A DNA stretch of 55,999 nucleotides from an uncultured Kiritimatiellota bacterium (GTDB lineage Bacteria > Verrucomicrobiota > Kiritimatiellia > RFP12 > DVOR01). The translations under genes and the position numbers were made by a program. Numbering within the stretch: the stretch's first letter is position 1; each line of letters starts with the position of its first letter. The notes beneath the pieces were generated by a model. It saw only the letters and a program-made list of their open reading frames with translations. It was not told the origin of the DNA and made no database searches. Of the stretch, positions 8,295 to 55,831 are shown in pieces. The DNA lies in assembly GCA_944389545.1 (NCBI GenBank), contig CALXMT010000015.1, positions 1 through 55,999 on the forward strand. Direction: 5' to 3'.

Positions 8295-8343
8295 GTCAAC
8301 GACAAATCACCGAAATGGACTGCCAAAACACCCTTTAAGCGTG

Positions 8344-8380
8344 ACGCGTGGGCAAAACCCACGCGTTCTTTCGTTCTCTT
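8344..8380 (+). terminator. Rho-independent terminator after deoA
   Basis: A perfect 9-bp stem (ACGCGTGGG / CCCACGCGT) with a CAAAA loop is followed by the pyrimidine-rich tail TCTTTCGTTCTCTT. It lies 50 bp after the deoA stop. Confidence 0.8.
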
Positions 8381-8586
8381 CAAATTTGCTTTATCTCCAT
8401 GCGTAGACTTAAAATATGCAATCTGTAAACAACAGAACTGCGCTTATGCGACATACGCTATAGCGTCTCGCGACCTCCTCTCCTACGAACGAAGGCCCTA
8501 CAGAGGCAGTTGTTTTCGCTACTTTTGGGGCTATTTTCTCGAAAATCGCTACCGGATCTCATCGTCACGATTCTAAAATCTTCCTC

Positions 8587-8697
8587 AGACCACTATAGGG
8601 TCTCGCACTGGACCACTATAGGGTCTGATCATGGACCCCTATAGGGTCTCTCACGCAACCCTATAGGGTTTGACCCCGGACCCTTATAGGGTCTGAC
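8587..8697. repeat. Phased palindrome array 1 (5 units)
   Basis: Five copies of a near-palindrome with the core ACCCTATAGGGT, usually extended to GACCCTATAGGGTC. Their TATA centres start at 8594, 8617, 8640, 8662 and 8685, a constant 22-23 bp period. Variable 5-7 bp linkers, often TGA/TG-rich, separate them. Both flanking halves vary in a compensating way in some units (ACCC with GGGT, AACCC with GGGTT). No coding frame uses it. A second array of the same type lies at 54683-54850. Confidence 0.93.
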
Positions 8698-8735
8698 GAT
8701 AGAGCCTAACGAGAACCAGGCGAGTCTAGCGAACT

Positions 8736-8992
8736 TTCCACGAAGACACGAAGGGGTCAAGGGCCTGGGCACAAGGGGCGGCTAGCGCCGCCCCGAAGAA
8801 CAGAGCGTGCAGGCCCGGAGGGCCAAACCTTCCACGGCCACAGAGAACGGAACGCGCGATAAGCTCGCGACGGGCGAAACCTCTGAGAGAACCCAAGCCT
8901 CCAAGCTCCTACACTTCCAAACTTCCAATCTGCACTTCACCGTTCGGTGCGGTACGCCTTACTAACGTGCCCATCCCTTGTGCCTCATCCCT
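8736..8992 (+). repeat. Dispersed repeat F, copy 1, interrupted
   Basis: The two outer parts (8736-8772 and 8933-8992) together match the continuous copies at 21725-21815 and, inverted, 29614-29710: CACGAAGACAC... GGGCAC then CACTTCACCGTTCGG... GTGCCCAT. Here 160 bp separate the halves, and CAC is present on both sides of the break. Confidence 0.8.
8773..8932 (+). mobile_element. Composite hairpin element inserted in repeat F
   Basis: The extra 160 bp has the same module order as 32989-33125: a GC hairpin (8775-8794, a palindrome of 20 bp), a degenerate AGAACAGAG-type tract, a second GC-rich hairpin region, and finally a CCAAGCCTCCAAGC tract ending in CTTCCAAACTTCC. It is bordered by a CAC duplication. 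There is no open frame, so any movement would need a helper in trans. Confidence 0.6.
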
Positions 8993-9004
8993 ACTCCATT
9001 GGTA

Positions 9005-9134
9005 AAGCGCGAAACGGAGGGCGGCGGTCGCGGTCAGCGGCGTAGCCGCAGAGCGACCGATGGAGCCCGAAGCGGTTCGCGCCCACCCTTGCGTCTTTGC
9101 GGTCTCTCCCCGTTTCTTCTGACAATGCTAGGCG
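9005..9134 (+). repeat. Dispersed palindromic repeat E
   Basis: Starting GCGCGAAACGGAGGGCGGCGG and folding back at CGGTTCGCGCC, this is nearly identical to 28239-28360. It contains the inner hairpin CAGCGGC...GCCGCAG and ends in TCTTTGCGG, the same end as the family D elements. Confidence 0.8.
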
Positions 9135-9206
9135 AATTGACAATCCCATGCAGCTGTGTAACAATGAAGACAATCAATGCTGGACATTCACCGAAGGAAT
9201 CCGTCT

Positions 9207-37023: not shown

Positions 37024-38019
37024 GTGAAGAAACCCGCACCGAAAGCCTCCCCCACCCCGAAGGCCAAGCCCGCCGCCAAACACGCCGGGCTTGGGCGCGG
37101 GTTGGACGCCCTTATCGCCCACCCCGAGCCCGTTGCCAAGGGAACGGTCCGTCCGCCCATCGCGGCCATCGCCAAACCCGCCGCGCCGGCCAACGAACGT
37201 CTCGCGGGGAGCGTCCTCACCGTCCCCGTCACGGAGATTGTCCGTTCGCCCTGGCAACCGCGTCAATCCTTCGATGAGAACGCGTTGCGCGAGCTCGCCG
37301 ACTCCATCAAGGCAAACGGCATCATCCAGCCGCTCGTCTGCCGCAAGTTGAGCGATGGTCGCTTCGAGCTCATCGGCGGTGAACGCCGCCTCCGCGCCGC
37401 AGGTCTCGCCGGCCTTACGCACGTCCCCGTCATCCTGGTGGAGGCCGAGGACCGCAAGGCCGCTGAGCTCGCCATCGTTGAGAACATCCAGCGCGCCGAC
37501 CTCAACGCCATCGAAGAGGCCGAGGGATACCGCACGCTCGCGGACCGTTTCGGACTGACTCAAGGCGAGGTGGCCGAGCGCGTGGGCAAGGCCCGCCCCA
37601 CCATCGTCAACGCCCTCCGCCTGCTCGACCTGCCGGACGAGACGAAGGCCATGGTCGCCGATTGGCGCCTCTCCCCCGGTCACGCGAAGGTCCTCCTGGC
37701 CCTCGCCCGCACCGAAGACCGTATCCGTCTGGGCCGCCGCGCCGTCTCCGAAAACATGACGGTTCGCGCCCTCGAGCGCGCCGTGGCCCAGCTCGCTTCG
37801 CCCGTCACGCCCAACCGAGCACCCAAGAACGACCTGCCGGCGGCCTACCTGCGCGACCTCACCGACCGTCTTCACGGACATTTCGGGACCGCCGTGCGTG
37901 TCACCCCGGGACGGACGTTGCCCAACGGGCGCCATGCCAAGGGCACGATTGAGGTCGACTTCTACGACAATGCCGACCTCGATCGCATCCTCGATATCCT
38001 CGGTGTGAGGATGGATTGA
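37024..38019 (+). CDS. parB: Chromosome partitioning protein ParB
   Basis: ParB-type CTPase that loads on parS and spreads to organise the origin region; 331 residues. After a basic, Pro/Ala/Lys-rich start comes GLGRGLDALI, then GERRLRAAGLAGL, ENIQRADLNAIEEAEGY and the helix-turn-helix LTQGEVAERVGKARPTIVNA (about 181-200). GTG start 8 bp after GGAG. parA is not adjacent and no classical parS (TGTTTCACGTGAAACA) was seen in the window. Downstream M28 gene starts 1 bp after the stop. Confidence 0.94.
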   Translation: MKKPAPKASPTPKAKPAAKHAGLGRGLDALIAHPEPVAKGTVRPPIAAIAKPAAPANERLAGSVLTVPVTEIVRSPWQPRQSFDENALRELADSIKANGIIQPLVCRKLSDGRFELIGGERRLRAAGLAGLTHVPVILVEAEDRKAAELAIVENIQRADLNAIEEAEGYRTLADRFGLTQGEVAERVGKARPTIVNALRLLDLPDETKAMVADWRLSPGHAKVLLALARTEDRIRLGRRAVSENMTVRALERAVAQLASPVTPNRAPKNDLPAAYLRDLTDRLHGHFGTAVRVTPGRTLPNGRHAKGTIEVDFYDNADLDRILDILGVRMD

Positions 38020-52647: not shown

Positions 52648-53343
52648 TTACTCTGCGAAAGAAAGCCTTTTTATCACATCCGCCGCAAGCAGGAGACCGG
52701 CGGACGCAGTGACCGGCATCAGGGAACCAAGCGGGGCACCGGGAGTCTGTGGCGCGGCGGTTTCCCGAGACCAGACGCAGCGGATGCCTTTAGTGAATCC
52801 GAGGTCGCGGAGTCCCTGCCGCACACGACGTGCCAGGGGACAGACCTGCGTCTTGGAAAGGTCGGTGACGCACAGCGCCGAAGGGTCACGCTTGCGCGCC
52901 GCACCCATCGCCGACCACGCGGGAATCCCGCGACGGAGGCATTCGGCCAGCAGGGCAAGCTTTGCGGGCACATCATCAATCGCGTCCACAACGGCATCGG
53001 GGCGCGCGCGATCAAGCAGGGCACTCACGTTTTCGCTGTCCACCCGCAAACGCTCGGCGGTCACGGAGCAGGTCGGGGCGATGTCACGCAGGCGTTCGGC
53101 GGTCGCGTCGGCCTTAGTGCGACCGAGGGTAGACAGCGCGGCGAAGGGCTGGCGGTTGAGATTGGAAGGCTCAAAAACATCACCGTCCACAAGCCACAGA
53201 TTCCCTACCCCACTGCGGGCGAGCGCCTCTGTGCACGCCCCGCCGACGGCCCCAAGCCCCACCACAAGAATCCGCGCAACGCGAAGCCGCGCCATCGCCT
53301 CGGCACCCAACAATGCTTCCGCTCGCAACAACGTCTCGCTCAT
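52648..53343 (-). CDS. tcdA: tRNA threonylcarbamoyladenosine dehydratase
   Basis: ThiF/E1-like enzyme that dehydrates t6A37 of tRNA to the cyclic form ct6A; 231 residues. VVGLGAVGGACTEALARSG is the nucleotide-binding loop, SNLNRQPFA and DAIDDV are typical of TcdA. Cysteines near SALCVTD and TQVCPLA. Its ATG overlaps the GH20-like gene stop by 4 bp. The t6A enzyme TsaC is encoded at 21.9 kb. Confidence 0.9.
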   Translation of the reverse strand: MSETLLRAEALLGAEAMARLRVARILVVGLGAVGGACTEALARSGVGNLWLVDGDVFEPSNLNRQPFAALSTLGRTKADATAERLRDIAPTCSVTAERLRVDSENVSALLDRARPDAVVDAIDDVPAKLALLAECLRRGIPAWSAMGAARKRDPSALCVTDLSKTQVCPLARRVRQGLRDLGFTKGIRCVWSRETAAPQTPGAPLGSLMPVTASAGLLLAADVIKRLSFAE

Positions 53344-54653
53344 AAATCTGGCTCCAGAAAGTCATGCAGGGACGCATCCAGCTGCGCCCGCGGGCCGCGC
53401 TCCAACCACAGCGCCTCCATCTCGCGTGCCAGACGTGCGCGTTCGTCCGCCAGCCCTGACTCGCCGAGGGCGCGATGAACGGCCAACCGTTGCAATCCCA
53501 ACGCGTGTCGCGCCTCTCTGGCCAACAGGGAATCACCCAATGCCATACCTTCTTTATGCAAAGCGTCCAATTCCTTTAACGTGGCCTGCAAGGCCGTTCT
53601 GTCAAAGGCCGGGGCCTCCGCACGTGGCAGATTATAGGCCCGGAAGAGCAACGTGGAGTTGCCGGCTTCAGCCTTGGCGGTGCGATAGGTGTCGCCCAGG
53701 CGCAACAGAAAATCACCCAATCCTGGCACGCCGACCAGACGGTCAAGGTCATCCATTGTCCTTCCCGCGGCAAGGGCAATGGCGGGCAGACTCACGGCAA
53801 GGGGTTGCCAATGGCCCGCATCGCCCCAATCCACAAGAAGCAGCCCATCCGCCCCGGCGGCCTCGGCCTGACGTAGATTCTCGCGCATATTCGCGGTGCG
53901 GCCACAAAAACTTCGCCACGAGGAAGTGCCCGGCGCGACAAGGGTACGCAACCCCGCGGCCTTGAGCGTCGTCACGCCACCGCCCAAATCATCGTTCGCT
54001 TCGTAACCCCAGACAATCCAGTTGGCATCACCGAGTCGTTCGGCGGCGAGGGGGATGGCCTCGGGGTGACGCAGGAGCATGTCGGCCCAAAATTCAGGCC
54101 GCTTGCCGTGGCGCCGCGCGATGTCGGCCATACGCGAGAGATGGTCAATATAGAGCTGGGCCTTGTCGTGTCCCGCGGAACGCCCCTGGCCCAGATCGAA
54201 GACCTCATCGCCGCCCAGATTCGCCGTATCCGCGTGCGAGAAACACGGCAGAAGCGCCTCGAGCAATCCCTCGGCAAAGGCCACGGCCTCGGGGTCAGTG
54301 GGACAAAGGCCGGTAGGAATCTTTTGGATGCTCCCCCACGGCGTGCGCGCCCCACCCTGCGGCAACTCCGCGAAACGGCGATATGCCGGCAGACGGAACC
54401 ACCGCTCGAAGTGGCCCAAGGTGTTTTGATTCGGCACGAGCATGATGCCCCACGCCGCACCATACGCGCCCAACTCCGCGATCGTCTCTGGCGTGTAAGG
54501 GTCAATGCCGCGCCAGACGGCCTCATGTCCCGGATAGGCAAAGACGTTTTCGAAGTAGAGCTCCAGCCGATTATATCCCAACGCGGCAAGCAAATCGACC
54601 ATCCACTTCAACGTCTCCAAGGAGTAGACGCGATTGCGGGAAACATCCAGCAT
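53340..54653 (-). CDS. GH20-like glycoside hydrolase
   Basis: Beta-hexosaminidase-related hydrolase, about 437 residues from this start. RGVMLDVSRNRVYSLETLKW starts the barrel, and NLGGDEVFDLGQG has the Asp-Glu pair of GH20. ELVPNQN-type block appears as IMLVPNQNTLGHFERW. The start is uncertain. ATG 54653 is the only late ATG, yet homology seems to begin a few residues earlier, and the frame stays open to 54965 through the palindrome array and the purC terminator. No signal peptide is seen from ATG 54653. Overlaps tcdA by 4 bp. Confidence 0.75.
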   Translation of the reverse strand: MLDVSRNRVYSLETLKWMVDLLAALGYNRLELYFENVFAYPGHEAVWRGIDPYTPETIAELGAYGAAWGIMLVPNQNTLGHFERWFRLPAYRRFAELPQGGARTPWGSIQKIPTGLCPTDPEAVAFAEGLLEALLPCFSHADTANLGGDEVFDLGQGRSAGHDKAQLYIDHLSRMADIARRHGKRPEFWADMLLRHPEAIPLAAERLGDANWIVWGYEANDDLGGGVTTLKAAGLRTLVAPGTSSWRSFCGRTANMRENLRQAEAAGADGLLLVDWGDAGHWQPLAVSLPAIALAAGRTMDDLDRLVGVPGLGDFLLRLGDTYRTAKAEAGNSTLLFRAYNLPRAEAPAFDRTALQATLKELDALHKEGMALGDSLLAREARHALGLQRLAVHRALGESGLADERARLAREMEALWLERGPRAQLDASLHDFLEPDL

Positions 54654-54682
54654 CACCCCCCGCCCAAAGGAGTACTTTTGTG

Positions 54683-54850
54683 CCTCACTAAAGGGTGATT
54701 TTGGACCCTTATAGGGTCTCGCCTCGAACCCCTTAGGGTTTGACCACGGACCCTTATAGGGTCTGACCTCGGACCCTATAAGGGTTGATCCCCGACCACT
54801 ATAGGGGTCCGCGAGCCCCCCTTTAAGGGCTGTCGGAACACCCTTGGCGG
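54683..54850. repeat. Phased palindrome array 2 (7-8 units)
   Basis: Palindromic cores of ACCCTTATAGGGT / ACCCTATAAGGGT type. TATA-like centres start at about 54689 (degenerate), 54710, 54732, 54755, 54777, 54800, 54822 and 54845 (degenerate), so the 22-23 bp period holds through all units. Linkers such as CTCG, GACCTC and GATCCCC resemble those of array 1. It lies between the purC terminator and the GH20-like gene. Confidence 0.93.
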
Positions 54851-54856
54851 AGGGCA

Positions 54857-54895
54857 CAAAAAAGCCCCCGGGCGACCGAGAGTCGCACGGGGGGA
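54857..54895 (-). terminator. Terminator of purC
   Basis: Minus strand: CCCCCGTGCGACT, short loop, GGTCGCCCGGGGG, then CTTTTTTG. Strong stem plus T tract, 20 bp after the purC stop. Confidence 0.9.
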
Positions 54896-54916
54896 TTGGG
54901 GCCGCGGGCAGGTCGC

Positions 54917-55831
54917 TCACAGCGTGGGGGCGCACGCCTCGCCCTCGGTCAGGCGACGGTAGCACTCGGCGTAAATGGCCTGCGTCTTGGCGATGACGTC
55001 ATCGGGCAGGGCCGGAGCCGGAGGCTGGTGGTTGAAGTGGATGGAGTCCAGCCAGTCGCGCACAAACTGCTTGTCCATGCTCGGCGGGTTCGCGCCGACG
55101 GCATAGGTGGTCTTGTCCCAGAAGCGGGAAGAATCCGGGGTCAGCGCCTCGTCGGCCAGGATCACGTTGCCGGCTTCGTCCAAGCCAAACTCGAACTTGG
55201 TGTCGGCCAGGATGATGCCACGGGCCTCGGCGTGCTCGGCGGCGGCCTTATAAAGGGCAATGGAGAGATCGCGCAACTTGCCGGCGAGCTCGGCGCCGAT
55301 GTCCTGCGCCATGTGCTCCACGGTCACGGCCATGTCATGGTCGCCGATGGCAGCCTTGGTGGTAGGCGTGAAGAGCACCTCATCCAACTTGGAGGCGTTC
55401 TGGTAACCCGCGCGGAGCAGCTGGCCATTGACCGTGCCGGACTTCTTGTACTCCGCCCAGCCCGAGCCGGTGAGGTAGCCGCGCACGATGCACTCGTAAG
55501 GAACGACCTTCAGCTTACGCACCAACATGGAGCGCCCCTGCAGCTCGGGGAGCGCGCTGAACGGCGCGGGATACTCCGCCACGTTGTCCGTGATAAGGTG
55601 GTTCGGGCAAATCTCCGCGAGCTTACGGAACCAAAAGACCGAGATGCTGTTGAGCACCTTGCCCTTGCCCGGAACACCATCGTCCATAATCACATCAAAG
55701 GCGCTCAGGCGATCCGTCACCACGATGAGCATCTTATCGCCCAAATCGTAGATGTCGCGCACCTTACCCTGGATTTTCTGCGTGCCGGGGACCTCAATCT
55801 CCATCAGCGCGCCGCGTTTGTCAAACTTCAT
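54917..55831 (-). CDS. purC: SAICAR synthetase
   Basis: Joins aspartate to CAIR in purine synthesis; 304 residues, longer than the bacterial average and close to the yeast-type form. KIQGKVRDIYDLGDKMLIV, TDRLSAFDVIMDDGVPGKG, IVRGYLTGSGW and LADTKFEFGLDE are all present. ATG 55831 follows AAGGAG. An extended -10 (TGGTATAAT) lies 27 bp upstream of the ATG. Confidence 0.96.
   Translation of the reverse strand: MKFDKRGALMEIEVPGTQKIQGKVRDIYDLGDKMLIVVTDRLSAFDVIMDDGVPGKGKVLNSISVFWFRKLAEICPNHLITDNVAEYPAPFSALPELQGRSMLVRKLKVVPYECIVRGYLTGSGWAEYKKSGTVNGQLLRAGYQNASKLDEVLFTPTTKAAIGDHDMAVTVEHMAQDIGAELAGKLRDLSIALYKAAAEHAEARGIILADTKFEFGLDEAGNVILADEALTPDSSRFWDKTTYAVGANPPSMDKQFVRDWLDSIHFNHQPPAPALPDDVIAKTQAIYAECYRRLTEGEACAPTL

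Follow-up and report, generated by a model that had tools for sequence, protein, structure and literature searches.

The phased palindrome array at positions 54683-54850 of the window (the whole 55,999-nucleotide stretch of DNA analysed here) represents a single copy of a DNA element that is dispersed, bounded and about 110-205 bp long. Between 24 and 26 such arrays were found in 706 kb of the genome to which the window belongs (G000) and between 47 and 49 in 716 kb of G003, the relative closest to it, the higher counts coming from a more sensitive chain scan. Chains of at least three units occur in every contig read and in none of the reversed contigs; under the more sensitive scan this control gave two weak matches. 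Exact matches to GACCCNTATAGGGTC number 133 (82 + 51) in the 2.53 Mb genome, and 0 in the backward control. The arrays are tentatively best explained as a multi-site platform for a putative dimeric protein.

The genomes are fragmented drafts, of which about 28-31% was fully read for G000 and G003; the window is contig C15 of G000, a metagenome-assembled genome from Kiritimatiellae. If the sampled density holds genome-wide, the G000 genome would contain about ninety arrays. The initial annotation had spoken of two independent loci; both are real, and their number was understated. Four G000 contigs (C29, C32, C37 and C51) start inside an array; assemblies thus appear to be interrupted by arrays, and the counts are probably too low.

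Architecture of the element

The window array was recovered by both TRF and the repeat finder, with five core palindromes at 54704-54809. Their centres lie 22-23 bp apart, which bears out the grid described in the initial annotation. The core comprises, with no strand assigned, U1 (54704-54718, GACCCTTATAGGGTC), U2 (54726-54742, GAACCCCTTAGGGTTTG), an edge-type core that lies on the core grid inside the array, U3 (54749-54763, again GACCCTTATAGGGTC), U4 (54772-54786, GACCCTATAAGGGTT), whose polarity is opposite, and U5 (54794-54809, GACCACTATAGGGGTC). Two weaker edge palindromes with the end consensus described below flank it, at 54685-54698 on the left (TCACTAAAGGGTGA, weak) and at 54816-54830 on the right (CCCCCCTTTAAGGGC). 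An outermost unit at 54838-54855 (ACACCCTTGGCGGAGGGC) is doubtful; in other arrays, the information past the edge unit is at background level. The array itself thus stands as annotated, while the proposed count of six clear and two degenerate units is replaced by five core units, two edge units and one doubtful one. The other array of the window, 46 kb away as had been noted, has five core units at 8588-8693, between two plus-strand genes for a pyrimidine nucleoside phosphorylase and a Nudix hydrolase.

Measured in three species, the distance between neighbouring centres is 23 bp in 224 cases, 22 bp in 34, 21 bp in 6 and 24 bp in 2, with a further 8 distances of 44-45 bp that span one degenerate unit. 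The step of 23 bp in the core narrows to 21-22 bp towards the array ends. In the canonical layout, an edge palindrome is followed by three to seven core palindromes (often LS-LL-LS) and a second edge palindrome. Column composition, computed over 324 units, gives 1.0-1.9 bits of information in columns 1-5 from the centre and 0.15-0.5 bits in the linker columns 10-12. Linkers differ within an array, and like positions agree between arrays, which speaks against a recent simple tandem duplication, an outcome that the initial annotation had named as refuting it.

Each palindrome is built from two half-sites, either long (L: TAGTGGTC, TAGGGGTC or TAAGGGTC) or short (S: TAGGGTCTC), the two types being offset by one base. 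Units are S-L or L-L; the S-S combination was seen once, against 28 expected and no fewer than 16 in any of 5000 shuffles. A dimer with limited spacing would give such a deficit. Short halves face outward at the array ends (39 S and 25 L outside, 114 S and 274 L inside; P 2e-6).

Both ends of the array carry the same outward consensus, TAGGGTCTCAGAAAGG followed by the edge palindrome CCCCTTTAGGGG (68 arrays), and thus form terminal inverted repeats. The motif CAGAAA is present at 18% of array ends compared to 0.3% in the background, and the information drops to background about 31 nt past the last core centre. The shared end consensus and this fall-off show that the element is bounded and that the weak outer units are a feature of it, where the initial annotation had seen decay at the edges.

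Distribution, spacing and drift

According to codon-based gene calls made in this analysis, 69 of 71 arrays are intergenic, lying between divergent (19), convergent (18) and tandem (32) gene pairs. These proportions match those of all intergenic gaps of 250 bp or more, with no preference for orientation. Control of neighbouring genes, which the initial annotation had suggested, is accordingly unsupported as a general role, and the window copy lies inside a gene (see the last section).

The mean gap between arrays is 25 kb in G000, 14 kb in G003 and 18 kb in the congener G015, and in all three species the spacing is more regular than expected, a non-random chromosomal distribution of dispersed palindromic sites such as characterises nucleoid sites. 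Against random intergenic placement, the coefficient of variation is 0.50 in G000 (0.84 expected, P 0.002) and 0.49 in G003 (0.89 expected, reached in 0/5000). For G015, where candidate gaps are too few for the intergenic null to be valid, uniform placement alone was used as the null (0.50 compared to 0.86, P 0.013). Even spacing could also arise from insertion immunity.

Among 388 genomes of the phylum, the CTATAG family of palindromes is restricted to G000, G003 and, sparsely, G005. These three species all keep an array at the purC-GH20 junction; its letters differ between them but the 22-23 bp step does not. The congeners G008 (Spyradenecus faecavium) and G015 have palindrome families of their own (AACCCTTAGGGTT and relatives), with other linkers and a step of 21-22 bp, and G080, from another family of the order, has six CCCTWAGGGG units whose step is exactly 22 bp and whose linkers are unrelated. 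In an unbiased autocorrelation of 7-mers, the peaks of G000, G003 and G005 fall at 23/46 and those of G015 at 22/44; TRF output on the congeners was dominated by codon periodicity. Comparison of the junction in relatives, the check proposed in the initial annotation, thus agrees with its view of a maintained structure, the period being conserved while the sequence drifts. No array was found in the samples of four other congeners, G001 (120 kb), G006 (80 kb), G007 (140 kb) and G011 (40 kb), which argues that some congeners can do without the system.

Turnover of array positions between G000 and G003 is high. Three are common to both (purC, C1:154666 and C3:67333), the first also being occupied in G005. 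The syntenic G000 DNA lacks the counterparts of several G003 arrays, and at one G000 site a single unit is retained. In the two shared arrays that can be aligned, substitutions are about three times as frequent as in the flanks (15/310 vs 12/799, P 0.004). Internal indels are absent, and in many of the substitutions both states are permitted ones. Exchange between copies would account for this fast substitution. In G008, at least 10 copies share one flank of 20-25 nt, the unit order and the linkers, and whole arrays have therefore been copied in this genome.

Several further features were seen around individual arrays. In most of the G008 copies read, ATAAGTCCACATCTTTTTCCG precedes the array just outside the conserved end (L302-L306, L277-L299), and many have a GC hairpin outside the array with compensating changes (GAATGGGCCGC/GCGGCCCATTC, GAATCGGCCCC/GGGGCCGATTC). 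At about 178140-178291 of G005:C1 (L251) lies a tandem array of the G000/G003 type with a near-perfect 46-bp repeat, which has arrived or expanded recently; the other G005 arrays are divergent. Two G000 arrays (C3 near 113592 and C4 near 19387; L188, L190) both break off into one 195-bp sequence with 99.5% identity, as though a single mobile sequence had entered each of them. Other dispersed repeats (GTGTCCGGGGAA..., TTCCACGAAGACACGAAGG and GTTCTCC-type repeats of 7-8 bp) form a mosaic in the intergenic DNA, at window positions 8300-9150 and elsewhere, and replace one another at syntenic sites between species.

A putative protein platform and its alternatives

The explanation that we place ahead of the others, while holding it tentatively, is that the arrays, as a dispersed repeat, serve as multi-site platforms for a putative dimeric protein, probably one that organises the chromosome. 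Each palindrome would most likely be the site of a dimer of one putative sequence-specific DNA-binding protein. With a step of two helical turns, adjacent dimers would sit on almost the same side of the helix, and a whole array could load a short cooperative filament or cluster. With a platform every 14-25 kb, outside operons and regardless of gene direction, the likeliest purpose would be to organise the chromosome, with arrays that bridge, compact or mark the nucleoid; control of single genes is less likely. The protein and its sites would have drifted together, hence the palindrome peculiar to each species, and copies would have spread as whole arrays. Three findings weigh against this reading: the turnover of positions between G000 and G003, the lack of arrays in the samples of four congeners, and the faster substitution in conserved arrays. 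That the arrays, set every 14-25 kb, form the DNA half of a previously undescribed chromosome-organising system in Kiritimatiellae, on which a fast-evolving dimeric protein would assemble and whose site sequence is each species' own, is a more doubtful proposal, though a possible one.

This platform resembles MatP/matS, SlmA and Noc, in which sequence-specific dimers organise the chromosome or its division from dispersed palindromic sites, such as the 23 matS and 50 SlmA sites of E. coli (PMC3116907). Those are single sites, whereas each locus here has an array of 4-8, no domain restriction was seen, and the protein is putative only. A step of about two helical turns is also characteristic of plasmid iterons and centromere arrays; however, iterons are direct repeats at one locus, in contrast to palindromes at about ninety loci here. 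We know of dispersed palindromes, but of none combining a fixed two-turn step, symmetric ends, a half-site rule, over-regular spacing and species-wise replacement of the sequence, and no described counterpart in Kiritimatiellae was found in the open-access literature. ParB, the only candidate binder family tested, has a near-universal single orthologue in the congeners and no copy that tracks the arrays, so a ParB or Noc paralogue was rejected as the binder. The window has no parS consensus at up to 3 mismatches and carries a chromosomal ParB gene at 37213-37491.

Next in probability, and a possibility to be taken seriously, is that the arrays are selfish and non-autonomous repeats of a MITE-like or REP/BIME-like kind, each spreading as a whole, with no chromosomal function. 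The palindromes would then be recognition sites of a transposase or host factor, and the even spacing would reflect target immunity or avoidance of insertion near existing copies. The inverted TAGGGTCTCAGAAAGG-CCCCTTTAGGGG consensus and CAGAAA enrichment at both ends, the common flank, unit order and linkers of the G008 copies, the high turnover and the patchy species distribution all favour it. With MITEs the arrays share short bounded bodies, inverted ends, turnover and a lack of coding capacity, but the body consists of phased palindromes, no target duplication or clean empty site was found, array-less syntenic sites holding other repeats, and no parent transposon was identified in searches for the domains PF01797 and PF09299. 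Nor does whole-element copying predict that G080 shares palindrome and step without the linkers. Tn7-like and Mu-like elements, whose ends hold multiple 22-bp transposase sites and which show target immunity (PMC9371665), lend the idea a precedent, but their sites are asymmetric direct repeats and not palindromes; a search for the corresponding transposase domain PF09299 returned no match, with its control also silent.

REP/BIME sequences are likewise short palindromes with many dispersed intergenic copies, often grouped and sometimes within genes (PMC3733652). The arrays differ in being loopless dyads on a strict 22-23 bp step, in their regular spacing, and in showing neither a GTAG or CGTC tag (positions 8-12, 324 units) nor the bias of REP/BIME towards tandem and convergent gaps. 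The RAYT family (PF01797, Y1_Tnp) had no match in G000, G003, G005, G008 or G015, with the control positive in 5 genomes, and a RAYT/REP origin was rejected on this ground. CGTC REPs are also known without a dedicated transposase. The selfish-repeat and protein-platform readings are compatible and do not exclude one another. If the arrays are selfish, their even spacing would be a genomic footprint of target immunity; if a protein binds them, they offer a natural experiment in which a DNA-binding protein has evolved together with about a hundred of its sites, and a route to a nucleoid organiser in an uncultured phylum.

The remaining explanations are all improbable. The transcript of the array folds better than shuffled sequence (z -5.4), as a tandem-hairpin terminator, mRNA stabiliser or attenuator would, but the palindromes are loopless, the best fold pairs units with each other, convergent or downstream positions are not preferred, and matches in Rfam lie far below the gathering scores, with nothing above chance. 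Stem base-pair covariation, the mark of an intrinsic terminator or RNA hairpin, is lacking as well, as the two halves of L-L units do not covary across the dyad at variable positions (34 matches compared to 39.7 expected, and 26 compared to 40.3), which argues for DNA-protein recognition. A single large hairpin was also rejected: the fold of the window array pairs its outer arms, but its palindromic units pair with each other anyway and the half-sites do not covary. Operators of an ordinary transcription regulator, marginally less probable still, would account for palindromic sites that lie partly upstream of genes, yet no promoter is expected at the 18 of 69 intergenic arrays that are flanked by convergent genes, the context is that of large gaps generally, and 4-8 sites at about ninety places far exceed the need of a regulon. 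Least probable is a neutral minisatellite grown by slippage: unit number does vary, and the G005 array described above is a near-perfect 46-bp tandem repeat, but the step is preserved, with indels rare or absent, though linkers diverge, like positions agree between arrays, the ends are defined and the spacing is regular. CRISPR was rejected because the linkers of about 7-9 nt recur between arrays, unlike the unique spacers of similar length in CRISPR. The likeness of CACTATAGGG to T7-class promoters is a coincidence, the sites being palindromic and variants such as CCTTATAGGG equally common. A viral origin was discarded since viral contigs gave three single matches, each an isolated hairpin outside any array; plasmids and phages gave no match.

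The copy within the GH20 reading frame

The window array lies between purC (SAICAR synthetase, PF01259; 54917-55900, minus strand) and the catalytic domain (PF00728) of a GH20-family gene (53340-54920, minus strand). The GH20 frame opens at a GTG at 54920 that overlaps the purC stop, and runs without a stop through a GC hairpin with a T run, then through the array, up to the catalytic domain. The hairpin (54858-54895, minus strand) resembles a terminator and encodes the PP...GGFF motif of the GH20 N terminus, a motif also found in relatives with a longer GH20 N terminus (L045, L046, L048, L049). The placement of the array right after a terminator and before a start codon, given in the initial annotation, therefore does not hold, as hairpin and array are both within the GH20 reading frame.

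The array is open in the GH20 frame in G000, G003 and G005. By comparison, all six frames are interrupted in every one of 41 other arrays of 100 bp or more. Judging by this pattern of stop codons, the purC-GH20 copy is most likely translated as part of the GH20 protein. A GTG-ATG immediately ahead of the catalytic domain may provide an alternative start. Congeners without the array have a short linker at the corresponding GH20 site.

In this respect the copy resembles the Rickettsia palindromic elements (RPEs), palindromic repeats found within protein genes in the reading frame (PMC10969869). That paper does not describe RPEs as phased arrays, and they are known for inserting in frame into genes again and again; here, only the purC-GH20 copy is so inserted, nearly all arrays having stops in every frame. 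It is an example of how such a repeat can become protein sequence.

The GH20 proteins of this genus lack a region of about 100 residues between the GGFF motif and the catalytic domain that more distant relatives possess. The PurC of the window is 95-98% identical to those of L039 (S. faecavium) and L038, and the source genome is close to Candidatus Spyradenecus.
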